A stretch of DNA of 64,000 bases from Nitrospira sp. (GTDB lineage Bacteria; Nitrospirota; Nitrospiria; Nitrospirales; Nitrospiraceae): the NCBI GenBank assembly GCA_018242725.1, contig JAFEBI010000012.1, forward strand, positions 62,001 through 126,000, read 5' to 3'. Numbering within the stretch: the stretch's first letter is position 1; the number at the start of each line of letters is the position of its first letter. The notes below the pieces were generated by a model. That model was given only the letters and a program-made list of their open reading frames with translations, made no database searches and was not told the DNA's origin. A program made the position numbers and the translations under genes. This document shows, piece after piece, positions 3,080-28,141 of this stretch.

Positions 3080-3865
3080 ATGACCAAGCTTCTAATCGTC
3101 GACGACGATCGCATGAACTGTGATCTGTTGCAAGATTTGTTCATCCGACAGGGATATGACGTCATCCTTGCGACGAGTGGGAGAGAAGGACTCGATCTGT
3201 TCCGAACGTCCAACCCAAAAGTCACGCTTCTGGATCTTCGTATGCCGGAGATGGATGGGTTGACTGTGTTGAAGGAGATCCGCGCAATCGATCCTCACGC
3301 AGCCGTGATTATTCTGGGCGGCGGCGCAACCGATGTCCATGAAAATCAAGCGCGAGCTCTGCGGGCCACCGATTTCATACGGAAAGGCTTGTCGCTGGAC
3401 ATTCTTGTTGAGGCGGTCAATCGAGTCTCGACGCTTCCAGGGTCTTCGATGGCCACACAGCCTCCATGCCTAGACGGAGAGATCGGGCAACAGAGCGGAG
3501 AGTCGGTTCTGGTGGTAGATGATGAACCGCTCGTCTGTGATCTGTTCGTCCGGTTTTTAGGCCTCCGTGGATATCGCGCATTTGGCGTGAGAAACGGACA
3601 GGACGCGCTTCGGATGGTCGACGAGATGCATCCGGATGCGCTGTTGCTCGACATGGTCATGCCGGAAATGGGGGGGATCGATGTGCTCCGAGCTCTGCGG
3701 GACAAGGACTATCCGGGGGGCATTATCATCATGACCGGAAGTCATAACGAGGAGTTGTTGGGTGAAGCCTGGAGTCTAGGTCCTCATGAGCTTCTGGTCA
3801 AACCGGTTGATCTCGATCGCCTTTTGATGGCGATCCAGCTTGTACTCGTCTGCCGCGAGTGCTAA
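3080..3865 (+). CDS. Tandem two-receiver response regulator without output domain
   Basis: About 261 residues made of two CheY-like receiver domains joined by a ~25-residue linker. REC1 starts TKLLIVDDDR and has its phospho-acceptor Asp in LLDLRMPEMDG and the conserved Lys in IRKGLSL. REC2 starts VLVVDDEP, with Asp in LLLDMVMPEMGG and Lys in LLVKPVDL. No DNA-binding or enzymatic output is present, so it probably relays or buffers phosphate, or acts by protein contact. The ATG at 3080 is preferred because the receiver fold begins immediately after it; an upstream GTG at 3029 would add an unlikely leader. Its stop overlaps the start of the peptidase gene. The cognate kinase is not identifiable from the sequence. 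Confidence 0.85.
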   Translation: MTKLLIVDDDRMNCDLLQDLFIRQGYDVILATSGREGLDLFRTSNPKVTLLDLRMPEMDGLTVLKEIRAIDPHAAVIILGGGATDVHENQARALRATDFIRKGLSLDILVEAVNRVSTLPGSSMATQPPCLDGEIGQQSGESVLVVDDEPLVCDLFVRFLGLRGYRAFGVRNGQDALRMVDEMHPDALLLDMVMPEMGGIDVLRALRDKDYPGGIIIMTGSHNEELLGEAWSLGPHELLVKPVDLDRLLMAIQLVLVCREC

Positions 3866-6084
3866 AACGCTTCCTGATGTACATCAGGACACGAGCGTTT
3901 CCCCTCTACCTCATCATGCTGTTCTTGGCCGGTGCCGTTGACGCATGGGCCGAGATCTCCCCAGCCGGTCAAGAGAGTCCACTCCTCCATCATCATCTCT
4001 CCGTCGAGTTGACCCCAGGCACACATGAAATCACGGCAACGGATCAGATCGAATTGGAGATTGAGCCGAACCATCCGTCGCTCACGTTCACCCTGGCCCC
4101 GACGTTGCGGATCGAATCGATCAGGATAGGAACATCATCGGCGGTGGGTAGTGAAGAGTCGGCAGGGATAGCCGTACCGTTCACCAGGATGAGGTCCAGA
4201 GAGGCGTCCGGTGAGCAAGTTATCGTCACCCTACCACAGGGTTATGGTCGGAAGATGACACTGACCTGGATTTACCGAGGGGCCATCAACGATCCACCAA
4301 AGGAACCGCGTCATTTGCGATTCGTTACGCCGAGTGAAACAGCGGGACATATCGGAGAGGAAGGAGTGTACTTGAGCGGGGAAACCCAGTGGTACCCGGA
4401 TCTTCCTGGGGCATTCGGGACCTATCGGATGACGGCTCAGGTTCCGCAAGGGTGGACGGTTGTTGCGTCGGGTCGGAAGGAGGACGAAGTGACGAATGTC
4501 GGCACGGTTGCCTCGACCTGGTCTGCGCCGAACCGATCGGAAGCCTTCACGCTGGTGGCGAACCATTTTGTGAGCAAGTCACGAATATGGCAAAGTGAAA
4601 CCGGTCAGCGGATCGACCTCCGGACGTATTTCTTCCCTGAAGATGCTGCGTTGGCTGATGAGTATCTTGACGCGACCACACAGTACCTTGAGGCTTACGT
4701 CAGGATCTTGGGGGACTATCCCTTTGACGCATTTGCCGTGGTGGAAAACTTTTTTGCCAGTGGGCTTGGAATGCCCTCCTTTACTCTCCTTGGCAGCGGC
4801 AGCATCAAACGACACTATGTACAACCGTATGCCTTAGGTCACGAGATCGTTCACTCGTGGATCGGTAATTCCGTATTTAATCGTGATGACGCGGGAAACT
4901 GGGTTGAAGGGCTGACGACGTATCTTGCAAATTATTACTGGCATGAATTGGTTCATGACGATCGGCAAGCATTGGAGCAGCGTCGCTTGATGCTGCAGGG
5001 CTACAATCTTTATGTCAAGCCGGAAGATGACTATGCGGTCTCTCACTTTGTGAGAAAACATGACGAGAAGGATAATGCCATCGGGTACCAAAAATCCGCA
5101 TTTATGTTTCATCTGTTCCGCCAAGAGATCGGAGAAGAGCCCTTCTGGCGAAGTCTCAAGACATTCGTCAGGGAATATCGCAATCAGCCGGCGGATTGGG
5201 CGGCAATAGAAAAGGTGTTTTCTCGAGAAAGTGGTCGATCGCTTCGATGGTTTTTTGAACAATGGGTTGAGCAGTCCGGCGCGCCGGTCATATCGTTGGG
5301 AGATATCCATACTCGTAGGGTGACGGGGGATGAGGGCAAAGAAACCTGGCTGTTGACGGTCCAGGTTCATCAGAGTGAGGGTCCCTTTCGGATGACGGTC
5401 CCTATCCGCATCATCATGAAGGGATCGACCGAGAGCAAGTCGATCCGGCTCAGACTCTCGCCATTGAGTGAGGCTGAATTTGTCCTTCACGATCAACCAG
5501 TACGGGTGGAGCTCGATCCAGACCTGATGATGTTTCGCCGCTTGGCAAGGCATCAGTTGCCGCCGATGCTGAATGGCTATGTCACGGATCCACACAAGGC
5601 TGTCTTGCGTGCGTTCTCAGATCCTGCCTCTCCCTTGCAACAGATTGTCTCGCGCATTGCCGATCATGAGCCGTCAGAATCCAAACGCGCGATGAGGATC
5701 GTGTCGGAGGAGTCGTCGCTTCCTCAAGGAGGATCGGTTCTCGTCCTGGCCGGCGCGGGTCAGCCCGAGGCTGTTTCCAAGCTCGTGCGAGATTCTTGTG
5801 GAGACCGCGTTGCTCTCAGAGAGACGGGGTTCCAGATCGATGGTCAAGAGTATGAAGGACCGAAGATGGCCGTCCTCTTCTCCTGTCCTCGCGCACATGC
5901 GCCGGGTAGTGTCGTCACGGTATTGTATGGCGTCACCCCGGGCGCAGTCGAGAAATTGTCCCGTTTCCTATTCTATTATGGGTGGCATAGTTACGTGCTC
6001 TTCCAGGATGGGGCCGTCACCAAACGCGGCCTATGGCATGGAACACCGGATGTGAAGGAGGTGCGGGTTGATGCGACGTCGTAG
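3859..6084 (+). CDS. Secreted M1-type (gluzincin) metallopeptidase
   Basis: A 741-residue exported protein related to M1 aminopeptidases. A basic stretch and hydrophobic segment (residues ~1-32, ending AWA) form a signal peptide. The zinc site HEIVH lies at 328-332, with the third ligand Glu at 350 in WVEGLTTYL, one residue closer than in classical M1 enzymes. The substrate-binding GAMEN motif is replaced by a VVENFFASGLGMPS stretch. After the catalytic domain there is a C-terminal region of ~300 residues without a recognised family. The GTG start overlaps the preceding stop by seven bases, suggesting translational coupling. Likely a periplasmic peptidase; aminopeptidase activity is inferred from the family and not certain given the altered motif. 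Confidence 0.82.
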   Translation: MLKRFLMYIRTRAFPLYLIMLFLAGAVDAWAEISPAGQESPLLHHHLSVELTPGTHEITATDQIELEIEPNHPSLTFTLAPTLRIESIRIGTSSAVGSEESAGIAVPFTRMRSREASGEQVIVTLPQGYGRKMTLTWIYRGAINDPPKEPRHLRFVTPSETAGHIGEEGVYLSGETQWYPDLPGAFGTYRMTAQVPQGWTVVASGRKEDEVTNVGTVASTWSAPNRSEAFTLVANHFVSKSRIWQSETGQRIDLRTYFFPEDAALADEYLDATTQYLEAYVRILGDYPFDAFAVVENFFASGLGMPSFTLLGSGSIKRHYVQPYALGHEIVHSWIGNSVFNRDDAGNWVEGLTTYLANYYWHELVHDDRQALEQRRLMLQGYNLYVKPEDDYAVSHFVRKHDEKDNAIGYQKSAFMFHLFRQEIGEEPFWRSLKTFVREYRNQPADWAAIEKVFSRESGRSLRWFFEQWVEQSGAPVISLGDIHTRRVTGDEGKETWLLTVQVHQSEGPFRMTVPIRIIMKGSTESKSIRLRLSPLSEAEFVLHDQPVRVELDPDLMMFRRLARHQLPPMLNGYVTDPHKAVLRAFSDPASPLQQIVSRIADHEPSESKRAMRIVSEESSLPQGGSVLVLAGAGQPEAVSKLVRDSCGDRVALRETGFQIDGQEYEGPKMAVLFSCPRAHAPGSVVTVLYGVTPGAVEKLSRFLFYYGWHSYVLFQDGAVTKRGLWHGTPDVKEVRVDATS

Positions 6085-7195
6085 TACTCAACGATTGTGT
6101 GTCTGGGGGATCTGTGCATTGATGGGGTTTCCGCCATTCGCATTGGCAGGTGATCAGTCGAGAGATACGACGCCTCAGGTTCGTTCCAGCGAGCGGCATC
6201 TGGCCAACATTCGGCAGTTGACTGTCGGACGGCAAAATGCCGAAGCATATTTCTCATTCGACGGGACCAAGCTGATCTTCCAATCGACCAACGATTGGTC
6301 GAAGGATTCGCAGGCGACCACGCGTAAGCCGACCGACAGCGGTCTGGGGTGCTATCAGATGTACGTGATGGACTTGGAGAGTGACACGGTTCGTCTCGTC
6401 AGCACTGGGAAGGGGGCGACGACCTGCGGGTACTTTTTCCCGGGTGATCGCCGCGTATTATATTCCTCAACCCATGCTGCGGGGAGTGAATGCCCGCCGA
6501 AGCCAAAGCGGGACGGCGCCTATCGTTGGGCGCTTGACGACTACGATATCTACTCTGTTCGACTCGATGGGCAGCAGATGCAACGGCTGACCTCTTCGTC
6601 GGGGTATGACGCGGAGGCGACTATCTCTCCTAATGGGAAGACCATCGTGTGGACATCGGTCAAGGATGGAGATCTCGATCTCTATACGATGAATGTAGAC
6701 GGGACCAACGCGCGACGGCTGACGGCTGATGTGGGATATGACGGTGGCGCATTCTTTTCTCCGGATAGTACCAGGATCGTCTATCGCGCGGCTCATCCAA
6801 GCGATCCAGCTGAAGTGGCCAAGTACCAAGATCTGTTGGCCCAGCGATTGGTTGAACCTGGACAACTAGAAATATTTGTGATCAACGCCGATGGATCACA
6901 CAAGCAGCAGGTCACATCGAACGGCGCGTCGAATTTTTCTCCCTACTTCCATCCGGATGGGAAACGCATCATCTTTTCCTCCAATCTCGAAACGAGAGGG
7001 GAGGGCGGTCGGCCCAGTTTCCATCTGTACCTTGTGCGTGATGACGGGACGGGGGTTGAACGGCTCACCACCGAAGGGCATTTCAATAGCTTTCCCATGT
7101 TTTCCCCGGACGGCAAACGTCTCGTATGGGTCTCCGATCGAAATGCGGAAGCCCCTGGCGAATTCAACGTGTTTCTGGCTGATTGGGTTCCGTAG
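6071..7195 (+). CDS. TolB-like PD40 beta-propeller protein, exported
   Basis: A ~374-residue protein with an N-terminal signal peptide (basic RRRS then a hydrophobic run ending FALAGD). It is followed by about six WD40-like PD40 blades: recurring patterns such as SFDGTKLIFQS, SPNGKTIVWTS, SPDSTRIVYRA, HPDGKRIIFSS and SPDGKRLVWVS. Such propellers resemble the TolB C-terminal domain and usually bind proteins or peptidoglycan-linked partners in the periplasm. A strong AAGGAGGTG sits eight bases before ATG 6071, inside the end of the peptidase gene (overlap 14 bases), so the two are likely coexpressed. A TolB N-terminal domain is absent, so this is not TolB itself. Confidence 0.82.
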   Translation: MRRRSTQRLCVWGICALMGFPPFALAGDQSRDTTPQVRSSERHLANIRQLTVGRQNAEAYFSFDGTKLIFQSTNDWSKDSQATTRKPTDSGLGCYQMYVMDLESDTVRLVSTGKGATTCGYFFPGDRRVLYSSTHAAGSECPPKPKRDGAYRWALDDYDIYSVRLDGQQMQRLTSSSGYDAEATISPNGKTIVWTSVKDGDLDLYTMNVDGTNARRLTADVGYDGGAFFSPDSTRIVYRAAHPSDPAEVAKYQDLLAQRLVEPGQLEIFVINADGSHKQQVTSNGASNFSPYFHPDGKRIIFSSNLETRGEGGRPSFHLYLVRDDGTGVERLTTEGHFNSFPMFSPDGKRLVWVSDRNAEAPGEFNVFLADWVP

Positions 7196-7267
7196 GCCAC
7201 GGTGATCCGCAACGAGCGAGTGGTGGGGGCTCAGCATTTCAGGGCCGTCAATTGAAATTACAGCTCG

Positions 7268-8356
7268 ATGAGTGTTCCGTCGCAACCATCCAGTTCCACG
7301 GCTGCAGCGCTCACCCAGGTTGGTTGTTCCTGCATGGCAGTGGGCATCAGCCTGTTCGGCTTGGCCCACTTTGATCTGCCGATCACGAAGTACGTGCGTT
7401 CGGTCACGATTCATCTCCCCTGGGATCAGCTGACCGTTCCCTGGATGGCGTTCACCAGCAATACGGGAGACTGGATCGGCCAAGGATGGCGCCTGGCATT
7501 CGTGAGCATTTTCCTATTTGCCGTCGCATGTGTTGCCCAAAAGCCGAATCTTAAGAGCGTGGCGATCCAGACGCTGATTGCCCACGGAATAGCGGCACTG
7601 CTGGCCAATGTGCTGAAGCACCTCATCGGCAGGCCTCGTCCGAAATTCGTGCACTCGGGAAATTGGGAGATGAGCTTTTCGTTGGTCTCCGGCCTCGACT
7701 CGTTTCCGTCCGGCCATAGTACGGCGAGTTTTGCCGTCGCGACGGTGTTGGCTAGACGGTTTCCCCCTCTTGCTCCGATCTTCCTGGCAGTCGCCGCATT
7801 TGTCGGTCTCAGCCGTATTCTGCGCGGGTCACATTTTCTCACCGATGTGATTGGTGGCGCAGTGATCGGCATCCTAAGCGGATGTCTTGCAACTGCGCCA
7901 GTCAAACAGTGGCGAGCAGCAATACAAGACGGAATACGTTATGCCGCAGTGGGAACATCAGCGATGTTCGCTGTGCTGTGGGTGCTGGCTCGTCCAATGG
8001 AAAAAGGTTTAGAAGGCATCTTATTTTTAGCCTTAGGAATGAGCGTGGTGGCGGCTGGCCTGTGGATTCGTCGGGCGCAGTGGTTTCGGCAAGCACGAGC
8101 AGGAGAGTGCCGACGATCGGATATTTCAGCACCTCTGATCATGTACGGCCTGGCTGCCATGACGACGGCACCTATGGTGGTATCGTCGGTTGGATTCGCT
8201 TGCATGGCATCTTGGCTCTACGCAATGGGCCGGCATGACGACCACATCAAGGAATCGACGGGATGGTCCATGATACGGGAGAGCGCAGTCATCGGCGGCC
8301 TGGCCGTTGTCATTCTGATTCTGATCGATGCCCGAGCGGTACTGCCATTTCCGTAA
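7268..8356 (+). CDS. PAP2-family membrane phosphatase
   Basis: A 362-residue integral membrane protein. The N-terminal half carries the full PAP2 signature: K-x6-RP in KHLIGRPRPK, PSGH in FPSGHSTASF, and SR-x5-H-x3-D in SRILRGSHFLTD, on a core of about six membrane helices. The C-terminal half has further hydrophobic segments of unknown role. Family members dephosphorylate lipid pyrophosphates (for example undecaprenyl pyrophosphate) or phosphatidate-type lipids; the substrate here cannot be read from the sequence. It starts 72 bases after the propeller gene, on the same strand, and is convergent with the kinase genes downstream. Confidence 0.88.
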   Translation: MSVPSQPSSSTAAALTQVGCSCMAVGISLFGLAHFDLPITKYVRSVTIHLPWDQLTVPWMAFTSNTGDWIGQGWRLAFVSIFLFAVACVAQKPNLKSVAIQTLIAHGIAALLANVLKHLIGRPRPKFVHSGNWEMSFSLVSGLDSFPSGHSTASFAVATVLARRFPPLAPIFLAVAAFVGLSRILRGSHFLTDVIGGAVIGILSGCLATAPVKQWRAAIQDGIRYAAVGTSAMFAVLWVLARPMEKGLEGILFLALGMSVVAAGLWIRRAQWFRQARAGECRRSDISAPLIMYGLAAMTTAPMVVSSVGFACMASWLYAMGRHDDHIKESTGWSMIRESAVIGGLAVVILILIDARAVLPFP

Positions 8357-17738: not shown

Positions 17739-18245
17739 TCTCCGTTCCAACTTAGCTCCGCTTCGCCGTAACCCAATAACTCCGTAAACCGCAAACCGCA
17801 TTCCAAAATAATAAGCCGTAGGCTTCACCGCAAGCACACGTCCTGGTTCAGCGTTTCCCACACGTAGCTGTGCCAAGTTCTGCGGAGTACCTTCTTTCCT
17901 ATTCTGAAAAATATCTGAGCGAGCTCGGACAAAGGCCCGATCCTGATCGGAATCGACGGGTATGTATCTAAATGGATACGTATCAGTAGAATTAGATACA
18001 GGTGTCCATGTAATATGCAGGGCCATGTAGAACTACGCAAGGTTCAAATGGACTGATGAATTAGTAGGTAGACCTTCCATGTACGTTCGGCACAGGCCTT
18101 GCTTTACCAGCGAAAGGTCTGCTGTTCCGAGTATCAGTCATGTACTGGAGGTGGGTGAGACAGATTGAGGCGAAGTGATGAATGGTGCCGTACATCCGTA
18201 ACGATGTGCAAGCGCATCGTCTGCCTTGAGTAACAGGAGGTGAAG
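17739..18245. other. Long intergenic stretch with no clear gene
   Basis: About 500 bases between the small membrane protein and the repeat/phospholipase gene. It holds a minus-strand open frame (18026-17703) of 107 codons with moderately protein-like sequence but no recognised family, no convincing ribosome site, and overlap with the preceding gene; I do not call it. A weak inverted repeat TATCTAA...TTAGATA lies around 17968-17997. The only firm signal is the AGGAGG at 18235-18240 belonging to the next gene. Confidence 0.4.
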
Positions 18246-21200
18246 ATGAGTTGGACAGGTGAGAATTGGGGGGCCAAGGAACTCCGCTTTGTCGCGGACC
18301 TGACCGGAGATGGCCGGGCGGACATCGTGGGTTTCGGCCGCGACGGGGTGTGGGCTGCGGTCAATAAAGGCGGGAATGTGTTCAGTCAGCCGCACATGTC
18401 TCTCACAAGTTTCAATTCTCAGGGATGGCGGGTGGATCAGCACGTCCGACTGCTCGCCGATCTGACCGGCGACGGCAAGGCGGACATTATCGGCTTCGGC
18501 GACAATGACGTCGTAATCGCATTGAGCAATGGTGATGGGACCTTTGCGCTGGACAAGTCTGTGCTGACGGAGTTCATCACCAGCAAAGGCTGGCGCGTCG
18601 ATCAGCATCCACGGTTTGCGGTTGACGTTACCGGCGACGGGAAGGCCGACATCATCGGCTTTGGGAATGATGGGGTGTGGACGGCGCTCGGCAACGGCGA
18701 TGGGACCTTTCAAGCGCCGAAACTTGTCCTGGCGGGGTTCAACGTCAACCAAGGCTGGCGGGTGGATCAGCATCCGCGATTCGTTGTGGATCTGACCGGC
18801 GATGGCAAGGCGGATATTGTGGGGTTCGGCAACGACGGGGTGTGGACGGCACTTGGCAACGGCGATGGGACCTTTCAAGCGCCGAAACTTGTCCTCGCGG
18901 GTTTCAGTGTCAACCAGGGCTGGCGGGTGGAGCAGCATCCCCGGTTTGTTGTGGATCTGACCGGCGATGGCAAGGCGGATATTGTGGGGTTCGGCAACGA
19001 CGGGGTCTGGACGGCACTCGGCAACGAGGACGGCACCTTCGGCGAACCAAGGTTGGTGCTCGCGAATTTTGGCGTGAACCAAGGCTGGCGGGTGGATCAG
19101 CATCCGCGATTCGTTGTGGATCTGACCGGCGATGGCAAAGCGGATATTGTGGGATTCGGCGACAATGGAGTCTGGACCGCCGTGAGCAACGGCGATGGTA
19201 CGTTCGGAGAGCCTAAGTTCTTTGAGGAGTTTGGGGTCAAGCAGGGCTGGCGGGTGGAGCAACATCCTCGGTTCATGGTCGACCTGACCGGCGATGGCAA
19301 GGCGGACATCATTGGATTCGGTAACGAAGCTGGGCCTCGGATCGCGTTGAGCAACGGGGATGGCACGTTTCAACCGGCAAAGCCCGCTTTGGAAAACGTA
19401 GACCCCCAGTCGGTCGTAAAGACAAAAGTAATCCCACTGGATTTTTTGCAGCGCAAATTCGACCTTTTTTTCAAGGATCGGTCCCGGCCTTTGTTCAAGG
19501 TACGACTCCATAACCTTGGGGGTGGTGACCACCGCCACAGCACAATCGATGTCCTATTCGACGATCCAGCGAAAGGCTATACGTCCCAATTGCGTGATGG
19601 CCAACCGAAGGATCTTGGCCAGCTTGAAGTGTCTCTTCCATGGGCTCCAGACCCCGACTTTCACTTCTCTGACTTAAACAGCACTACACTCACCGCGACG
19701 GCCATCCCTGGTTCACCAGTTGGCGTTGAAGTGAGAGTCGATTTCGAGGTCGAAGGGGTCGAGATGATCGTCAACAACTTTCCGGATATTGATTTCGATG
19801 GGTTCAATATCCGGGTTGGGTTTCGGTTGGAACACGATGCCGATGCTGGTCTGGTTTCCGTGGCCACAGACAAAAGCTTGATCCACACGCATGCCTCAGT
19901 CAACGTGTCAGGTTTGCCGGACGGGGTCTTTGCCTCAGGGGTTGAGGGGAAGTTTAATGAAAAGATCGCGGATGCGCTGAAGGACAATCGCGATGCCTTC
20001 AATCGCATAGCCACGCGCTGGCTCGTCGGAGGAGACTTCATGGTTCTCGGCGTTGCAGGCGATGACCAGTCGTTGACCATCACCTATGTCATCCCGCCCG
20101 GTCAACTTGAGCCGTTTCCAGAACACCCGCAGCCGCCACTAGACCCAGGTCGCCTCGCGAATATCGACCACATCGTGGTGCTCATGATGGAGAACCGTTC
20201 GTTCGACCATATGCTCGGCTATTTGAGCAAAGAGGGAGGAGGCGATGGTAGGAAACGGCTCGACATCGATGGATTGCGCGGGGGTGAGGTCAATGATGAT
20301 GGTAAGGGGCACAGCTATACGTCGTTCTCGCTTCCGGATACGACGTTCACTGAAAGTCCCGATCATAGCCATCTCCCCGTTGAGAACCAGATCGACGGGG
20401 GCCAGATGGATGGGTTTGTGAAGAGTTTCATCGGCAAGTATCCCACCATCGACAACCCTGGCAAGATCATGGGGTATCATACTGCGGCCCATGTGCCCGT
20501 CTATGACGCCCTGGCTCGGGAATTCCTCGTTTGTCAGCGCTGGTTCGCCGCTCACCCCGGTCCGACGTTTTGCAACCGATTTTATACGTTGACAGGTCGG
20601 TTGAACCGAGACTCATTCGGCAACTTTGAATTCGATAATTTTACGGGCAGTGAATTCAAGCCGGTTCCGACCAAAACCATCTTCGATCATCTCACGGACC
20701 GTGCAGTCTCCTGGCATTTCTATGAACATCGCTACTGCTCGTTGCGGATGTATGCCCAATATACCTTGGACGACCATTACATCGTTGATGCAGACGACCC
20801 TATAAAAGGGTTCTTCGCCAGCGCACGAGCGGGATCACTGCCATCGGTCTCATTCATTGATCCCAACTTCATCGATGAACCCGACGGTCAAGACAATGAT
20901 GATGGAGCCCCGGCCAATATTAGCGCAGGACAAAATCTCATCGGACGGATCGTGGATGCGGTAGTGCGGAGTCCGAAATGGGCAAAGACCATGCTGATCG
21001 TCACCTATGATGAGCACGGCGGATTTTACGATCATGTCAATCCACTTGATCCTCAATATCGAGTCAACGCCAAACCTGTATCAGGTATCGATCATTACGG
21101 TGTGCGGGTCCCGACCCTCGTCATTTCCCCGTGGGTCGATCAGAGTGCGGTGAGCGATGTGGTGTTCGATCATACCTCGATTGCCAAGACCATTGCCCGT

Positions 21201-21434
21201 CGGTTTATGAGTGCCACCCCCCCGGATCTGGGTGAACGCGTAAGTGCAGCAAATGACCTGTCGATGGTGCTCCGCCCAACTCCTCGGCAGGACATCCCGA
21301 GCATTCCCGTCCCACCTGCACCGGAGCCAAGAGCCGCTTTCGAGAAGCGCGTTGCTCCGGCGGCGGACAGCGACGATTTCAAAGAAGTGATGCGGGCGTT
21401 GCGTGATCGGTACCCGATTCGGCGGGATCAGTGA
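18246..21434 (+). CDS. VCBS/FG-GAP repeat protein fused to a phospholipase C/acid phosphatase-type phosphoesterase
   Basis: A 1062-residue two-part protein. Residues ~1-388 are seven tandem ~55-residue repeats. Each carries the calcium-type motif DLTGDGKADIVGFG and an NGDGTF turn, a beta-propeller arrangement of the VCBS/FG-GAP kind. A ~240-residue linker domain of unknown family follows. From ~635 to the end is a phosphoesterase (PF04185) domain: start DHIVVLMMENRSFDHMLG, then AAHPGPTFCNRFYTLTG, VSFIDPNFID, and VTYDEHGGFYDHV, the metal-binding and catalytic motifs of non-haemolytic phospholipase C. No signal peptide is visible at the ATG, which follows AGGAGG by five bases. Export by another route or a cytoplasmic role is open. 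Enzyme family is firm; substrate unknown. Confidence 0.85.
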   Translation: MSWTGENWGAKELRFVADLTGDGRADIVGFGRDGVWAAVNKGGNVFSQPHMSLTSFNSQGWRVDQHVRLLADLTGDGKADIIGFGDNDVVIALSNGDGTFALDKSVLTEFITSKGWRVDQHPRFAVDVTGDGKADIIGFGNDGVWTALGNGDGTFQAPKLVLAGFNVNQGWRVDQHPRFVVDLTGDGKADIVGFGNDGVWTALGNGDGTFQAPKLVLAGFSVNQGWRVEQHPRFVVDLTGDGKADIVGFGNDGVWTALGNEDGTFGEPRLVLANFGVNQGWRVDQHPRFVVDLTGDGKADIVGFGDNGVWTAVSNGDGTFGEPKFFEEFGVKQGWRVEQHPRFMVDLTGDGKADIIGFGNEAGPRIALSNGDGTFQPAKPALENVDPQSVVKTKVIPLDFLQRKFDLFFKDRSRPLFKVRLHNLGGGDHRHSTIDVLFDDPAKGYTSQLRDGQPKDLGQLEVSLPWAPDPDFHFSDLNSTTLTATAIPGSPVGVEVRVDFEVEGVEMIVNNFPDIDFDGFNIRVGFRLEHDADAGLVSVATDKSLIHTHASVNVSGLPDGVFASGVEGKFNEKIADALKDNRDAFNRIATRWLVGGDFMVLGVAGDDQSLTITYVIPPGQLEPFPEHPQPPLDPGRLANIDHIVVLMMENRSFDHMLGYLSKEGGGDGRKRLDIDGLRGGEVNDDGKGHSYTSFSLPDTTFTESPDHSHLPVENQIDGGQMDGFVKSFIGKYPTIDNPGKIMGYHTAAHVPVYDALAREFLVCQRWFAAHPGPTFCNRFYTLTGRLNRDSFGNFEFDNFTGSEFKPVPTKTIFDHLTDRAVSWHFYEHRYCSLRMYAQYTLDDHYIVDADDPIKGFFASARAGSLPSVSFIDPNFIDEPDGQDNDDGAPANISAGQNLIGRIVDAVVRSPKWAKTMLIVTYDEHGGFYDHVNPLDPQYRVNAKPVSGIDHYGVRVPTLVISPWVDQSAVSDVVFDHTSIAKTIARRFMSATPPDLGERVSAANDLSMVLRPTPRQDIPSIPVPPAPEPRAAFEKRVAPAADSDDFKEVMRALRDRYPIRRDQ
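18423..19409 (+). repeat. Tandem in-frame 165-bp repeats within the phospholipase fusion
   Basis: Six in-frame units begin with codons for GWRV(D/E)QH at 18423, 18588, 18753, 18918, 19083 and 19245. The spacing is 165 bases except for one unit of 162; a divergent first unit precedes them. The units starting at 18753 and 18918 are almost identical at DNA level, pointing to recent duplication or gene conversion, while the outer ones have drifted. Repeat number may therefore vary between strains. Confidence 0.9.
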
Positions 21435-21803: not shown

Positions 21804-24524
21804 ATGGCTGAGCACTACGATGTCTTTTTAAGTTACCACTTATCCGACAAAGAGCTTGTGGAGCGCATCGCACGATCACTCCGTGATCATGGCCTGAAGC
21901 CATTCCTTGATCAGTGGTATCTCGTTCGGGGCAGACTCTGGCCTCAGGAGCTGGAAAATGCATTAGGCTCGTGCGGAGCAGTTGCCGTGTTCATTGGTCC
22001 TGGAGAAATGGGGCCATGGCAGGAAAAAGAGGTCTACTTTGCAGTGGAACGGCAGACGCGCAATCCGGATTTCCCTGTTATCCCCGTCTTGCTGCCGGGT
22101 TCAGATCCGGCCCTTGGATTCCTCCTTGGCGAGTATACCTGGGTCGATCTTCGACAGGGCATAGATGATCCACGCCTGCTTTCTCTGCTGGCCGGCGCCA
22201 TCCGAGGTGAAGTGCCTGGGCCTGAGTTTTCCGAACAGATCAAGGCTACCCGTTCGACTCTCTGTCCGTATCGCGGTCTGGAGTACTTTCGGGAAGGGGA
22301 TGCACCATTCTTTTTTGGGCGAAAGGCCGCAATCCAAACACTTTATGAGACCGTCCGAGAGCATCGTTTCATTGCTGTTGTGGGAGCCTCGGGTTCCGGC
22401 AAATCTTCGATCGTGAGAGCGGGCCTCCTTCCGCAGCTCCGACGGGAGGAACGCACAGTCTGGGATGTCTTGACCCTATCTCCTGGCGATGAGCCGCTCA
22501 AGGCTCTTGCTCGGGCGGTATCTCCGCTCCTGGAGCCGGAAGCGCTGGATAAAACAGATCGTCTCAAGAAGATCAACAAACTCACGGATGCCTTCGCGAA
22601 GCAAGAAGTCAGCCTGCATGATGTCGGTCAGGATATTTTGGAAAAGCAATTGGGAACGAATCGCTTGTTATTGGTCATTGACCATGCTGAGGAACTTTAT
22701 ACGGCCGTGAAAAACGACCGCCATCGTAGGCGGTTCATTGATGAACTGCTTGAGGCTAGCGAGAGGGGCTCATGGACTGTGATGCTCACGCTCCGCGGGG
22801 ACTTTGTAGGAAAGGCGCTTTCCTATCGCCCTCTCTCCGACCGGCTGCAGGGCGCGCAGGTTAATTTGGGGCCGATGACGCGAGTCGAATTGGAACAGGC
22901 TATCATGGTCCCAGCCCGACGCGTTGACTTGTCCTTTGCCGAGGGGCTTGTGACACGGATCCTGGATGATGTCGGTGATGAACCAGGCAATTTGCCCCTG
23001 CTCGAATTCGTACTCAAGCGTTTGTGGAAAGACCGCCAACGGTCAGAACTCTCGCACCAGGCCTATGATGCCATGGGAGGCCTGCAGGGTGCGGTAGCGA
23101 ATAAGGCCGAAGAGGTTTTCCGGAAGTTCGGTCCTTTGGAGCAAGCAGCGGTCAAACGGGTTTTTCTTCAGGTTGTCCGAGCTGCCGAAACCGGAGAAGA
23201 TACCAGCCGAAGAGCGGCACTCTCAGAAATTGACCCTACAGCCTTGGGCGTTGTCAAGAAGCTTACGGACGAGCGGCTGCTCGTTACGAATCGTGCGCTA
23301 GCTGGAGAGGAGACCGTCGAGGTAAGTCATGAAGCGTTGATCCGTAAGTGGCAACGGTTACAAGGATGGCTCAATGAGGATCGCGAGTTTCTGCTGTGGC
23401 GGGAGGGGCTGAGAGGGCGTGTGAACGAGTGGCAGCGCAATCCACAAGACGAAGGCACGTTGCTCCGAGGCACGCCGCTGGCAGTGGCACACCTCTGGTT
23501 GTCTCAGAAAGCGGACATGTTGACCGATTCGGAAAAGAACTACATTAGACAGAGTGCCGAGGTTCGTGACCGGGCCGTGCGGGAAGATCAAGAACGGCTA
23601 AGTCGCGAGCTAGCTCAGGCGGAACAAGCACGGAAAGCTGCGGAGGAAGCGCAAGAGGTGTCCGAGCGTTTAAGACGACGACAATGGCAGTTTGGTCTGG
23701 TGCTGCTCGGCACCGCACTAATAGGTTGGATGGTAACATGGCTTACGGATCGGCACTATGGGTTGAATGAGGCTGTCCTCAAGATTCGATCAATCTATAG
23801 CGATATCCATCAGGATCCTGAGAAGGAGATGATATTGATACAAGGCGGCACATTTACAATGGGTGATGTGGAGGAGATGGACAAGTCAGAGGACTCAAAT
23901 CGCAAACCCAGACATCGCGTTTCAATTAAATCCTTTTATATGGGGAAATATGAAGTAACCTTTGAGGAATATGATCGGTATGCCATCAGCAAAGGGAAAC
24001 CGTTGCCCCCTGATCAAGGTTGGGGTCGTAAGGAGCGGCCAGTCATCAATGTGTCGTGGAAGGATGCCAAGGACTACGCGGAATGGCTCAAACAAAAAAC
24101 CGGCAAACCCTACCGCTTAGCGACAGAATCGGAATGGGAATATGCGGCGCGGAGCGGCAACGTGCAGCAAACCTGGGCAGGAACTTCGGACCCTAGTGAA
24201 TTATCCAAATATGCCGTGTTTGCAGGTAACTCAGGAGGCAGTACCGAAGCGGTCGGTATGAAGGAGAAGAATGGGCTTGGGCTCTATGACTTGAGCGGGA
24301 ATGTTTTCGAATGGGTGGAGGACTGTGCTCATGAGAACTATAAGGATGCCCCAGAGGATGCATCGGCATGGCTGGATAACGGGGATTGCCCTATGCGCAT
24401 GCACCGGGGCGGTTCCTGGGATAACGTTCCGATGGATCTCCGTTCGTCGCACCGAGGCTCGGGTCTAGATTCCAGCCGGAGCAGTCACCTTGGCTTCCGT
24501 CTTGCTAAGGGCCTTAAGCCTTAA
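21804..24524 (+). CDS. TIR - STAND NTPase (nSTAND1-like) - transmembrane - FGE-sulfatase-like domain protein
   Basis: A 906-residue multidomain protein. Residues 1-~135 are a TIR domain (YDVFLSYHLSDKELVERI; WQEKE with candidate NADase Glu76). Residues ~155-560 form a STAND-type NTPase: CPYRGLEYF entry and FFGRK, Walker A GASGSGKS (194-201), Walker B LLLVIDHAEEL, then a winged-helix region ending in EVSHEALIRKW. A charged coiled stretch leads to one membrane helix (~630-650) with positive charges before it, implying the TIR/STAND part is cytoplasmic and the C-terminus periplasmic. Residues ~673-903 are an FGE-sulfatase fold (IQGGTFTMGD, ESEWEYAARSG, GLYDLSGNVFEW, RGGSW, GFRLA). The catalytic cysteines of true formylglycine-generating enzymes are missing, so it is probably a binding domain. 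Likely an immune or stress receptor; inference. Confidence 0.85.
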   Translation: MAEHYDVFLSYHLSDKELVERIARSLRDHGLKPFLDQWYLVRGRLWPQELENALGSCGAVAVFIGPGEMGPWQEKEVYFAVERQTRNPDFPVIPVLLPGSDPALGFLLGEYTWVDLRQGIDDPRLLSLLAGAIRGEVPGPEFSEQIKATRSTLCPYRGLEYFREGDAPFFFGRKAAIQTLYETVREHRFIAVVGASGSGKSSIVRAGLLPQLRREERTVWDVLTLSPGDEPLKALARAVSPLLEPEALDKTDRLKKINKLTDAFAKQEVSLHDVGQDILEKQLGTNRLLLVIDHAEELYTAVKNDRHRRRFIDELLEASERGSWTVMLTLRGDFVGKALSYRPLSDRLQGAQVNLGPMTRVELEQAIMVPARRVDLSFAEGLVTRILDDVGDEPGNLPLLEFVLKRLWKDRQRSELSHQAYDAMGGLQGAVANKAEEVFRKFGPLEQAAVKRVFLQVVRAAETGEDTSRRAALSEIDPTALGVVKKLTDERLLVTNRALAGEETVEVSHEALIRKWQRLQGWLNEDREFLLWREGLRGRVNEWQRNPQDEGTLLRGTPLAVAHLWLSQKADMLTDSEKNYIRQSAEVRDRAVREDQERLSRELAQAEQARKAAEEAQEVSERLRRRQWQFGLVLLGTALIGWMVTWLTDRHYGLNEAVLKIRSIYSDIHQDPEKEMILIQGGTFTMGDVEEMDKSEDSNRKPRHRVSIKSFYMGKYEVTFEEYDRYAISKGKPLPPDQGWGRKERPVINVSWKDAKDYAEWLKQKTGKPYRLATESEWEYAARSGNVQQTWAGTSDPSELSKYAVFAGNSGGSTEAVGMKEKNGLGLYDLSGNVFEWVEDCAHENYKDAPEDASAWLDNGDCPMRMHRGGSWDNVPMDLRSSHRGSGLDSSRSSHLGFRLAKGLKP

Positions 24525-24600
24525 TCCGTTACTCCCTGCATGGTGACGCACTGCTCCCAATGTTTGTATCGCAAGTTTGCGATTGTCGAACCATCGCTGC

Positions 24601-24839
24601 GATTGGGTGTGTGACAACTCGTTGCCATATGACCATCCGAAATGCCTAGCGACCTCCATAACTCCCTCATCACCAATATCCCTCAACGTCTGGATCGGCT
24701 GCCCTGGTCGCGCTGGCATCGGCTCATCGTTGTGGCGCTTGGGATCACCTGGATTTTGGACGGCCTTGAAGTCACGATTGTCGGAGCACTCGCTCCAGTT
24801 CTCACGCTTCCGAAGGATGGGGTCGGATACCGTTTATAG
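24601..24839 (+). pseudogene. Truncated duplicate of the 5' end of the downstream MFS transporter gene
   Basis: Bases 24601-24813 repeat 26664-26876, the upstream region and first 57 codons of the intact MFS gene. The offset is a constant 2063 bases and identity over ~24690-24813 is near complete. The copy diverges abruptly after LTLP and runs into KDGVGYRL and a stop at 24837-24839. It would encode a 65-residue peptide with a single membrane helix. It is evidence of duplication or insertion that placed the DUF4143 ATPase gene between the two copies. Confidence 0.85.
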
Positions 24840-25229: not shown

Positions 25230-26375
25230 CTACGAATACGACTCGTCCCAGAGCGTTTTCACAAACTCACGGATGGGAAGGATCGTAATCTCGCCGACTT
25301 GTCGGCGTCTCTCTTCTAGGCTCACGCAGAGATAGCGTTTGAGTTTCCGTTCCTCCGCCAACGCCTTTAACGATTTCAGGTCATTGGGACCGACGTTTTC
25401 GCTTGCTTTGAGCTCGATCGCGGTGTGATCACCCAAGATAAAATCAACTTCAAAACCGGACTTGGATTTCCAAAACGCAAGAGATTCACCAGAGACATAA
25501 TCCACATAACTCTTGAGTTCGTGGAAAAGGTAGGTCTCCACCGCGTGGCCGTATTCCGGCGTCCTGCGACGGTATTGTCGTTCCTGTAGGGCGGCCACAA
25601 CGCCGATATCAAAAAAATAATATTTGGACGAGGCTAAGGGTTTACGCTGTCTGGTTTCGCGCCAAGCCGGCAGTTCGTAGAGAATGAGTGTATCTTTTAA
25701 GATCTCAAAGTATTCGTAGATCGTAGTGCGGGGAACTTGGGCGTCGATGGCGACATTGGTGAAATTGATGATGGTGGCATTGCAGTAGGCCGCCACCTTC
25801 AGGAATCGGCTGAAGGCTGAAATGTTTCGTGTGGCTCCTTCCGCGACGATTTCCTGCTGCAGATAGGATCCGGTATAGGCGTCGAGATCAGCGCGAGGAT
25901 CGTCGGAGAAATAGATGGAAGGGAGACCGCCGCGGGTCATAAACTTATCGAGGTCGAAGTGCTGCCCCAATTCTCCCTGAGTGAGTGGGTGCAGGTATTT
26001 GGTTCGTGCACGTCCCCCTAAGAGATTAATCCCTCCCTGGCGAAGTTTGCGGGCACTTGACCCCGTGAGCAGAAAACGAATCCCTCGTTGTTCGATGAGC
26101 CGATGGACTTCGTCCAGCAGTCCGGGAATCCGTTGAATCTCGTCGATGACCACCAGCCGATCCTTGGGAGTGAGCTCTTCGGCCAGTCGCTGTGGGCGTT
26201 GGCTGAAGGCCAGATAGACCGACGTATCCAGGAGATCGTATACGCGAGCACTTCGGAAGCTTTGGGTAATGAGAAAGCTCTTCCCTGTTTGGCGGGGCCC
26301 TAAGAGAAAGTGAGACTTCTTCTCTGCCAAACTTCCTATGTCCAGGACTCGGGGAATGGCGGGCATACGGATCAT
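25230..26375 (-). CDS. AAA+ ATPase with DUF4143 (AAA_14 / DUF4143 family)
   Basis: A 381-residue ATPase of a family common in mobile and accessory regions. Residues ~20-150 form the AAA_14 core: Walker A GPRQTGKSF, Walker B RLVVIDEIQR, then a sensor-like LLTGSSARKLR. Residues ~190-340 are the DUF4143 domain (winged-helix followed by a nuclease-like fold, with VDFILGD and AIELKAS; the pattern resembles the D...E-x-K of PD-(D/E)XK nucleases, so a nuclease role is possible but unproven). The ATG at 26375 lacks a clear Shine-Dalgarno; two palindromes lie immediately upstream. Function in this family is largely unknown; autoregulation is inferred. Confidence 0.82.
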   Translation of the reverse strand: MIRMPAIPRVLDIGSLAEKKSHFLLGPRQTGKSFLITQSFRSARVYDLLDTSVYLAFSQRPQRLAEELTPKDRLVVIDEIQRIPGLLDEVHRLIEQRGIRFLLTGSSARKLRQGGINLLGGRARTKYLHPLTQGELGQHFDLDKFMTRGGLPSIYFSDDPRADLDAYTGSYLQQEIVAEGATRNISAFSRFLKVAAYCNATIINFTNVAIDAQVPRTTIYEYFEILKDTLILYELPAWRETRQRKPLASSKYYFFDIGVVAALQERQYRRRTPEYGHAVETYLFHELKSYVDYVSGESLAFWKSKSGFEVDFILGDHTAIELKASENVGPNDLKSLKALAEERKLKRYLCVSLEERRRQVGEITILPIREFVKTLWDESYS

Positions 26376-26704
26376 GCAGGCAGGGTATCATGTGACGACT
26401 CTGTCGTCAAATGGCATGCTAAATGACGACTTAGTCGACACTGGCCTATCACTCCCGTCATCGACCGGCCGCGACGACGGAACTGTCTACCACACGCTGC
26501 CATGGGCTCGGGTCATCGCAATCCAATGGCGGAGGGTCTGATGGCTAATCCGCTTGGTCAGAGCCCCGGGGAATCCCAGTAGCAGCCGATGGGTGATCTG
26601 TTCAGGCGATCACAGTTGTGGAGCCAATAGAATAACGTTCGGTTGTCCGAAACATTTCTTTGTGATTGGACATGTGGCAGCTCGTTGCCGTATGACTATT
26701 GGAG
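26376..26704. other. Divergent intergenic region between DUF4143 ATPase and MFS genes
   Basis: About 330 bases. The left third holds the tandem palindromes; the right end (26664-26704) is shared with the broken MFS copy and probably contains the MFS gene leader. Between them (about 26441-26663) I see no gene and no convincing promoter. Confidence 0.45.
26393..26440 (-). promoter_or_regulatory. Two tandem palindromes (operator-like) upstream of the DUF4143 ATPase gene
   Basis: TGACGAC-TCT-GTCGTCA at 26393-26409 is a perfect 7+3+7 inverted repeat. TGACGAC-TTA-GTCGACA at 26424-26440 repeats it with one mismatch. Their centres are 31 bases apart, about three helical turns, on one DNA face. The first begins 18 bases before the ATPase start codon, so binding there would cover its promoter or translation start. 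The binding protein is unknown. Confidence 0.55.
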
Positions 26705-28141
26705 ATGCCTAACGATCTCCCTAACTCCATCATCACCAATATCCCCCAACGTCTGGATCGGCTGCCCTGGTCGCGCTGGCATCGGCTCATCGTCGTGGCG
26801 CTTGGGATCACCTGGATTTTGGACGGCCTTGAAGTCACGATTGTCGGAGCACTCGCTCCAGTTCTCACGCTTCCGACCACACTAGGTTTGACGGAATCTC
26901 AGGTCGGCTTAACGGCATCGGCCTACCTGGCTGGTTCAGTCACCGGTGCCATAGTGTTTTCATACCTGGCTGATCGACAGGGTCGCAAGCGGTGGTTTCT
27001 TATCACCCTCGTGCTGTACCTCACCGCTACCGTACTGAGTGCGTTCTCATGGGATCTCTGGAGCTTTCTCTGTTTCCGATTTCTAGCCGGCGCCGGAATC
27101 GGCGGCGAATATTCTGCCATTAATTCAGCCATCGACGAGCTCATTCCGGCCCGAGCACGTGGTCAAACGGATCTCGCAATTAATGGCAGTTGGTGGATCG
27201 GTACCGCAGCGGGTGCGCTGATTTCGATCCCGTTGCTTGATTCGCACATTGTGCCGGAATGGCTGGGCTGGCGCCTTTGCTTCGGATTGGGCGGTGTCTT
27301 AGGGCTCGGTATTTTGCTGATCCGCCGGCTGGTGCCTGAAAGTCCCCGCTGGCTGATGACTCATGGTCGTCTACACGAAGCTGAGGCGATCGTAGATTCG
27401 ATCGAAGAGCAAGTCACACAAGACAAACGATTGGGCCCTCTCCCTGAGCCTGAAGGTAGCGTGACGATCCATACAAATGCACAAGCGACATTTAAAACGG
27501 TGATACAACAGTTGGTGAAGGTCTATCCCACACGCACCGTACTTGGCGTGACCCTGATGGTCACGCAATCGGTCCTGTACAACGCAATTTTCTTTACCTA
27601 TGCCCTCGTGCTGACAAAATTCTATGGTGTCTCGGCGAGCCAGATAGGGCTGTACATCATCCCCTTCGCGATAGGAAATTTCTTGGGGCCTTTGCTCCTC
27701 GGCCGCTTCTTCGATACGGTTGGACGAAAGCCCATGATTGCCTTGACGTACACAACCTCCGGCCTTCTCCTTGCGCTTACCGGCTATCTATTTTGGAAGG
27801 GCTATCTAACTCCGATAACACAAACCGTAGCATGGTCGATCATTTTTTTCTTCGCGTCGGCAGGAGCCAGCTCTGCCTACTTGACGGTCAGTGAAATATT
27901 TCCACTGGAAATTCGAGCAATGGCCATAGCCGTCTTTTTCGTCGTGGGACAAGGGGCGGGGGTATTGGCTCCCTGGTTCTTCAGTATGCTTATCCAAGAG
28001 TCCGCCGCCTCAGTTTTCTACGGCGACCTCGTGGGCGCTGCATTGATGCTTCTCGGCGCCGTTGTCGCGTTGGTGTTTGGCGTCAAGGCTGAACAGAAGC
28101 CGCTGGAAGCGCTTGCTGGTCCGATCTCAGCTGCGAGGTAG
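26705..28141 (+). CDS. MFS transporter (sugar/aromatic-acid symporter-like, 12 helices)
   Basis: A 478-residue major facilitator protein of the inner membrane with about 12 hydrophobic segments. Visible family motifs: the loop 2-3 motif ADRQGRKRWF, the second-half equivalent FFDTVGRKPMI, and the ESPRWL motif in the middle that is typical of sugar-porter and AAHS-type subfamilies. An acidic residue in the first helix ([10 protein letters not shown]) fits proton-coupled symport. The ATG 26705 is used; a TTG at 26699 is in frame. The substrate cannot be told. The 5' end has a truncated duplicate about 2 kb upstream. Confidence 0.87.
   Translation: MPNDLPNSIITNIPQRLDRLPWSRWHRLIVVALGITWILDGLEVTIVGALAPVLTLPTTLGLTESQVGLTASAYLAGSVTGAIVFSYLADRQGRKRWFLITLVLYLTATVLSAFSWDLWSFLCFRFLAGAGIGGEYSAINSAIDELIPARARGQTDLAINGSWWIGTAAGALISIPLLDSHIVPEWLGWRLCFGLGGVLGLGILLIRRLVPESPRWLMTHGRLHEAEAIVDSIEEQVTQDKRLGPLPEPEGSVTIHTNAQATFKTVIQQLVKVYPTRTVLGVTLMVTQSVLYNAIFFTYALVLTKFYGVSASQIGLYIIPFAIGNFLGPLLLGRFFDTVGRKPMIALTYTTSGLLLALTGYLFWKGYLTPITQTVAWSIIFFFASAGASSAYLTVSEIFPLEIRAMAIAVFFVVGQGAGVLAPWFFSMLIQESAASVFYGDLVGAALMLLGAVVALVFGVKAEQKPLEALAGPISAAR

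Follow-up and report, generated by a model that had tools for sequence, protein, structure and literature searches.

A membrane-spanning TIR-nSTAND1-FGE protein of Nitrospira: a probable conflict receptor and former DGR target

Introduction

To our knowledge, the bacterial STAND immune proteins that have been studied experimentally sense intruders inside the cell, and the sensors of Avs proteins and bacterial NACHTs are cytoplasmic. A related class, the STAND-FGS fusions, was described by Kaur et al. (eLife, 2021; PMC8195603), who, in the section on these fusions, list TIR among the N-terminal effectors, name the nSTAND1 domain and propose recognition of invaders. According to the same section, a DGR is frequently found nearby or elsewhere in the genome, and one genome may hold several copies with different effectors; the anti-invader role of the class is predicted there, not proven (PMC8195603). 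DGR diversification of STAND targets in nature is reported in the main text of Doré et al. (PNAS, 2024; PMC10907252) for clade 5D and Thiohalocapsa PB-PSB1, including one STAND target with a predicted periplasmic CLec domain.

The protein considered here is encoded in a stretch of 64,000 nucleotides (the window), which belongs to contig 3 of a Nitrospira assembly of 4.0 Mb in 34 contigs, estimated to be 96% complete. Members of Nitrospira are key nitrifiers. The original prediction had considered membership of an undescribed system possible; this was not supported, as TIR/EAD-STAND-FGS fusions with DGRs are already predicted conflict systems (PMC8195603) and periplasmic CLec domains have been suggested for some STAND targets (PMC10907252). 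The gene is best explained, with a probability of roughly 0.6, as encoding a single-protein, membrane-anchored conflict (cell-suicide) receptor that was formerly a DGR target.

Domain architecture of the receptor gene

The receptor gene occupies positions 21804-24524 of the plus strand, on which all features given below for it also lie, and encodes 906 aa from an ATG start. Its N-terminal TIR_2 domain (aa 7-119, 21822..22160; Pfam, E 7.6e-22) is the predicted effector and contains a candidate for the catalytic Glu of a TIR NADase, Glu76 (22029..22031), which is invariant in 15 homologues. The predicted switch, an nSTAND1 NTPase with a C-terminal helical part (aa 155-550, 22266..23453; Pfam PF20703, E 4.6e-118), carries Walker A GASGSGKSS (aa 194-202, 22383..22409), located in homologue alignments, and Walker B LLLVIDHAEE (aa ~289-297, 22668..22694), in which D293, E296 and E297 are invariant. 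Alignments of 8 and 15 homologues show little or no variation at E76, W72 and Q73 of the TIR domain, at the residues of both Walker motifs and in the C-terminal region of STAND. A membrane helix (aa 630-648, 23691..23747) separates these parts from an FGE/C-type-lectin-fold domain (aa 673-902, 23820..24509; FGE-sulfatase PF03781, E 1.6e-47), the predicted extracytoplasmic sensor. The Pfam statistics are far above chance level, and orthologues in other Nitrospira share 68-72% overall identity. The TIR domain with an intact candidate glutamate, the NTPase with good Walker motifs, the single membrane helix and the FGE-like domain devoid of catalytic cysteines had all been read from the sequence beforehand, and each was borne out, the last by the lack of the human C336/C341 pair in the alignment.

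The best structural match of the FGE part is PvdO (5HHA, 34% identity), its closest solved relative, with TvpA (2Y3C) at rank 4. This kinship would suit an enzymatic FGE domain, acting as a modifying factor or an oxidase like PvdO, in a fusion that controls a step of metabolism. Such a role is very improbable: the FGE catalytic cysteines are missing, and the alignment places their positions within the C-terminal segment that serves relatives as DGR variable repeat, so a conserved active site is excluded at that place. Covering the catalytic-cysteine site of true FGE enzymes, this tip is better suited to binding than to catalysis. Structure prediction, proposed earlier as a check, gave a single-chain model of moderate quality (mean pLDDT 71.5) with a helix at 621-649; the FGE part was modelled well, and because the TIR domain and parts of nSTAND1 were modelled poorly, no claims are made about contacts between domains.

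Among defence-system models, none covers the whole protein, the PADLOC matches being partial and weak. Viral contigs contained no relative of the gene, plasmids held only partial homologues of <60% identity, and a promoter and terminator scan gave no signal above chance.

Several features of the neighbourhood are recorded here in their own right. The gene directly upstream, at 18240-21434, encodes a large protein that has FG-GAP repeats at its N-terminus and also a phosphoesterase domain of the phospholipase C type. Downstream, a 216-bp direct repeat (24598-24813 and 26661-26876, 92% identical) duplicates the 5' part of an MFS transporter gene (26699-28141). The interval flanked by the repeat holds an AAA_14/DUF4143 ATPase gene (25230-26375, minus strand), which matches the PADLOC candidate defence family PDC-S01 (E 3e-55).

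Topology of the sensor

The helix of the window protein, FGLVLLGTALIGWMVTWLT at residues 630-648, has no charged residue; RLRRR (622-626) lies ahead of it and a near-neutral stretch behind it, and by the positive-inside rule these flanks indicate an N-in/C-out orientation. The protein contains cysteines only at positions 57, 154, 841 and 862. The last two, Cys841 in WVEDC (24324..24326) and Cys862 in GDC (24387..24389), form the conserved FGE pair in the alignment of nSTAND1-FGE proteins and are probably joined by a disulfide.

By the hydropathy of the segment that links switch and sensor, 30 nSTAND1-FGE proteins were classed as anchored and 14 as soluble. The Cys pair (WVxDC, and a second cysteine before the RGGSW motif) was counted only in proteins with both sites readable (23/30 anchored, 11/14 soluble); it was present in 23/23 of the former and 0/11 of the latter, where EWC and unpaired cysteines occur instead. 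The FGE part of most anchored members has exactly these two cysteines and no others, and 22 of the 23 helices in the readable anchored set lack charged residues, the exception (L163) having two. Within the STAND family this association amounts to one deep split, since helix and FGE domain were inherited as one block.

Outside the STAND family, pair-bearing FGE proteins have a membrane segment or signal peptide in front whenever the frame is complete; four apparent exceptions proved to be three fragments and one frame that is cut at the locus edge and, in its full version, includes a signal peptide. Many exported FGE proteins there have no such pair, and for this reason a two-way table of Cys pair against export is not significant (p 0.51). 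What the sequences support is that the pair implies export; the converse fails. PvdO, a periplasmic protein (PMC6206403), has the same pair when aligned to the window FGE domain. The Cys-pair rule thus offers a simple sequence test for outward-facing STAND-FGE sensors. As a separate observation, L176 and L188 of Nitrospira encode caspase-like-FGE proteins that have the Cys pair and an apparent signal peptide, by which both parts would be exported.

The location of the TIR domain and NTPase inside and of the FGE domain outside, first proposed from the charges around the helix, is now supported both by those charges and by the tie between Cys pair and anchoring or export in the readable cases. 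A membrane-attached but otherwise conventional TIR-STAND sensor of the cytosol, with a helix that does not span or an FGE domain that stays in the cytoplasm, would find a precedent in the cytosolic nSTAND1-FGE class of the same genus and even the same genome (the C10 paralogue, L043). That class is without the helix and, in the readable cases, without the Cys pair; the window protein has both, together with RLRRR on the inner side, and this alternative appears quite improbable. Export of the FGE domain, and with it an extracytoplasmic sensor, is strongly supported by these sequence features.

DGR cassettes in related Nitrospira

The suggestion that a retroelement diversifies proteins of this kind, made from the FGE fold, was right for the family. 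A survey for linked elements found complete DGR cassettes with template, reverse transcriptase (RT) and Avd at genes of the same architecture in related Nitrospira, with template repeats (TR), RTs and Avd adjoining STAND-FGE targets in the genus. The relatives compared are mostly draft metagenome assemblies. Two complete TR-RT-Avd cassettes have TIR-nSTAND1-FGE targets with a membrane helix (L155/L202 and L139/L212); in L155 the target (4788-7550), Avd (4321-4680), RT (3242-4324) and TR (about 3135-3249) all lie on the minus strand. Avd scored above the curated NCBIfam cut-off in both cassettes tested (L155 and L152), and a scan of the genus found it above cut-off at nine places in seven genomes, L139 among them.

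A typical template encodes a 41-aa, Asn-rich blank of the sensor tip. Compared with their own TR over the repeat core, the targets of L155/L202 and L139/L212 are changed at 20/31 and 21/31 adenines, respectively, and at 0/68 other bases (p 2e-13 and 2.7e-14), and in targets of complete cassettes 10/10 AAC codons keep the third base. At eight loci with orphan nSTAND1-FGE targets (L140, L148, L149, L160, L167, L170, L191 and L209) the first 34-66 codons of avd are left and the RT part is gone, which indicates that targets have repeatedly outlasted their DGR machinery. A different configuration is seen at L207 (1710-3935) of Nitrospira WA-bin32, where a template-like variable repeat (VR), with 0/29 adenines changed, runs into a template-type 3' flank; this looks like a VR-TR recombination that deleted Avd and RT.

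The window copy as a fossil target

The stretch of the window gene homologous to these template repeats (aa 864-904, 24393..24515) is best described as a fossil VR. Relative to the nearest template it is changed at 22/31 adenines and also at 15/68 other bases, an adenine excess of p 4.6e-6, and the third base is kept in 6/10 AAC codons. A significant adenine imprint thus remains in an eroded repeat, which marks the gene, by its sequence, as a former DGR target without recent rewriting from templates of this kind. In keeping with this, its orthologues of the same architecture sit in complete DGR cassettes with the adenine signature. No avd stub was found behind the window gene by tblastn.

Because the variable stretch is eroded, the window copy may be losing function, and a decaying orphan with no selected function since DGR loss has to be considered. 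Besides the erosion itself, several relatives have orphan targets next to remnant Avd stubs, and some have split or transposase-interrupted copies, which would fit such decay. The frame of the window gene is nevertheless intact over 906 aa, with catalytic and structural motifs all kept in comparison with homologues that differ by 28-53%, and decay is an improbable account. An interrupted copy is found at L142 (G028:C95), where a transposase-like ORF (6891-7865) lies inside the FGE region of an orthologue of the window gene.

Paralogues and DGR traces in the same genome

The genome of the window encodes six strong nSTAND1 proteins. Paralogues of the window protein are a divergent TIR-nSTAND1-FGE form with a membrane helix (contig C2, L041), DUF4062-nSTAND1-FGE forms with the helix (C7, L042) and without it (C10, L043), and two helix-bearing WD40 forms, TIR-nSTAND1-WD40 (C7, L045) and nSTAND1-WD40 (C29, L044). 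At L041 (4480-15941), a TPR-patatin-like protein, the divergent TIR-nSTAND1-FGE paralogue and a TIR-WD40 protein with a membrane helix are clustered, the first and third being named from sequence; the cluster is possibly a defence island.

The VRs of the C7 (L042) and C10 paralogues differ at 14/117 sites, and all 14 fall at adenines of the template of a related genome, where 33/117 positions are A (hypergeometric p 1.8e-9). Flanks of the two repeats are unrelated on both sides. Such a pattern is classically left when one template, mutagenised at its adenines, has rewritten two variable repeats. The C7 target has a membrane helix and the C10 target has none, so that one template would reach an outward-facing and an inward-facing receptor of one genome.

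The window had been noted to contain no reverse transcriptase; this is correct, and neither a DGR RT nor Avd was found in the whole 96%-complete assembly. C27:827, the sole RT of the assembly, was rejected as a DGR RT: it scores 376 bits as a group II intron RT, for which the cut-off is 300. A DNA search of the assembly for a template repeat returned FGE genes only, and no direct repeats that could serve as a local TR occur at the C7 and C10 paralogue loci. The DGR cassette of this genome either lies in an assembly gap or was lost recently.

A bolder reading, offered tentatively, is that Nitrospira has a hypermutable repertoire in two compartments, in which one template rewrites outward-facing membrane-spanning and inward-facing cytosolic receptors, each wired to TIR or other effectors, and in which orphans, the window gene among them, are kept as fixed, 'germline-like' specificities. 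If true, this repertoire would be a bacterial analogue of combining somatic diversification with a pairing of outward and inward innate receptors.

In the same order, the single-contig genome G052 has a run of about a dozen FGE matches within 14 kb of contig 1 (1584594-1598802).

Module swapping

Compared with the window protein, the C2 paralogue and the C7 paralogue of L042 are 52-57% identical in their helix-FGE parts and about 33% in their nSTAND1 parts, which points to different histories of sensor and switch. In the FGE tree, a single branch (support 100/100) parts anchored from soluble proteins with 1 change; mapped on the nSTAND1 tree, the anchored or soluble state must have changed at least five times across well-supported branches. 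Judged from these trees, the block of helix and sensor has been swapped between switches at least five times. L141 provides an individual case, with about 79% of its TIR-nSTAND1 half common to the window protein and a helix-FGE block of the L145/L146 type. In homologues of the TIR-nSTAND1 half from Caballeronia and others, a similar helix is followed by a WD40 propeller or by different C-terminal parts; the TIR-nSTAND1-helix unit would thus be a chassis for exchangeable outward-facing sensors. A further open frame of 2463 aa, at L065 (G024), joins TIR-nSTAND1 to C-terminal repeats that look HEAT-type, not FGE or WD40.

Proposed mechanism

In the favoured model of a membrane-anchored suicide receptor, the periplasmic FGE/C-type-lectin fold would use the surface around its variable C-terminal stretch to bind a ligand, and the single helix would relay this binding to the nSTAND1 switch in the cytoplasm. 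The switch would then exchange its nucleotide and oligomerise in the plane of the membrane, bringing TIR domains together that would consume or modify NAD+, so that the cell is halted or killed. In relatives, the RT, Avd and template cassette would rewrite the ligand surface at adenines. Specificity of the window copy would be fixed, because its variable stretch is no longer rewritten.

Two lines of evidence bear on the ligand. The location of the sensor outside favours surface events, such as adsorption, contact or envelope attack, over intracellular phage products. Intracellular phage-made proteins would be out of its view, which speaks for a receptor of the same architecture and topology that responds, instead of to phage, to damage of the envelope or to surface molecules of self, kin or competitors, with programmed death or growth arrest under stress or contact as the output. 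The WD40 propellers that take the place of the FGE domain on the same chassis in homologues can also be read in this way. A fixed self ligand is harder to reconcile with the adenine-targeted hypermutation in close relatives than an open-ended set of foreign ones, and this version appears rather unlikely. By analogy with DGR action in the relatives, a varied foreign ligand is favoured for the conflict receptor.

Comparison with known systems

The window protein shares with the STAND-FGS fusions of Kaur et al. an N-terminal effector, a central nSTAND1 domain and a C-terminal FGS/FGE domain. The presence of several copies per genome is likewise matched, by the TIR-, divergent TIR- and DUF4062-nSTAND1-FGE and the nSTAND1-WD40 forms of its own genome. 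The section on these fusions mentions neither a membrane helix nor a split between exported Cys-pair and cytosolic sensors (PMC8195603), both of which are found here. Unlike that class with its frequent DGRs, the window copy has an eroded VR and no DGR in its assembly.

With the clade 5D system, as presented in the main text of Doré et al. (PMC10907252), the Nitrospira family shares nSTAND1/NACHT targets, a single C-terminal CLec domain, TIR effectors in some members and diversification in trans. The nSTAND1-FGE targets described there (DGR 6) are predicted to be cytoplasmic and have EAD8, whereas the TIR-nSTAND1-FGE proteins of Nitrospira are membrane-spanning and the window copy is a former target.

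More distant likenesses concern the layout or the fold. Avs proteins and bacterial NACHTs have the same order of effector, STAND and sensor as the window protein, and Avs family models were absent from its PADLOC matches. PvdO of Pseudomonas resembles the sensor in its Cys pair and in showing no FGE catalytic cysteines in the aligned region; it is a stand-alone protein needed for pyoverdine oxidation (PMC6206403) and, unlike the window system, is without TIR, STAND or DGR. Treponema denticola TvpA, a DGR target according to the literature, has the FGE/CLec fold with a VR at the same C-terminal place; it has no STAND or TIR domain, and no Cys pair in the alignment.

The main texts of PMC8195603 and PMC10907252 do not discuss such DGR targets in Nitrospira. 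Judged against the literature searched, and with the reservation that supplements of these two papers may list some cases, the split between exported Cys-pair and cytosolic sensors and the recurrent swap of the helix-sensor block appear to be new. The same holds, within this scope, for one template serving both sensor kinds in one genome and for Nitrospira cassettes of this architecture. Compared with sensing inside the cell, an extracytoplasmic, retroelement-diversified TIR-STAND sensor would allow a reaction before entry and would present an open-ended recognition surface.
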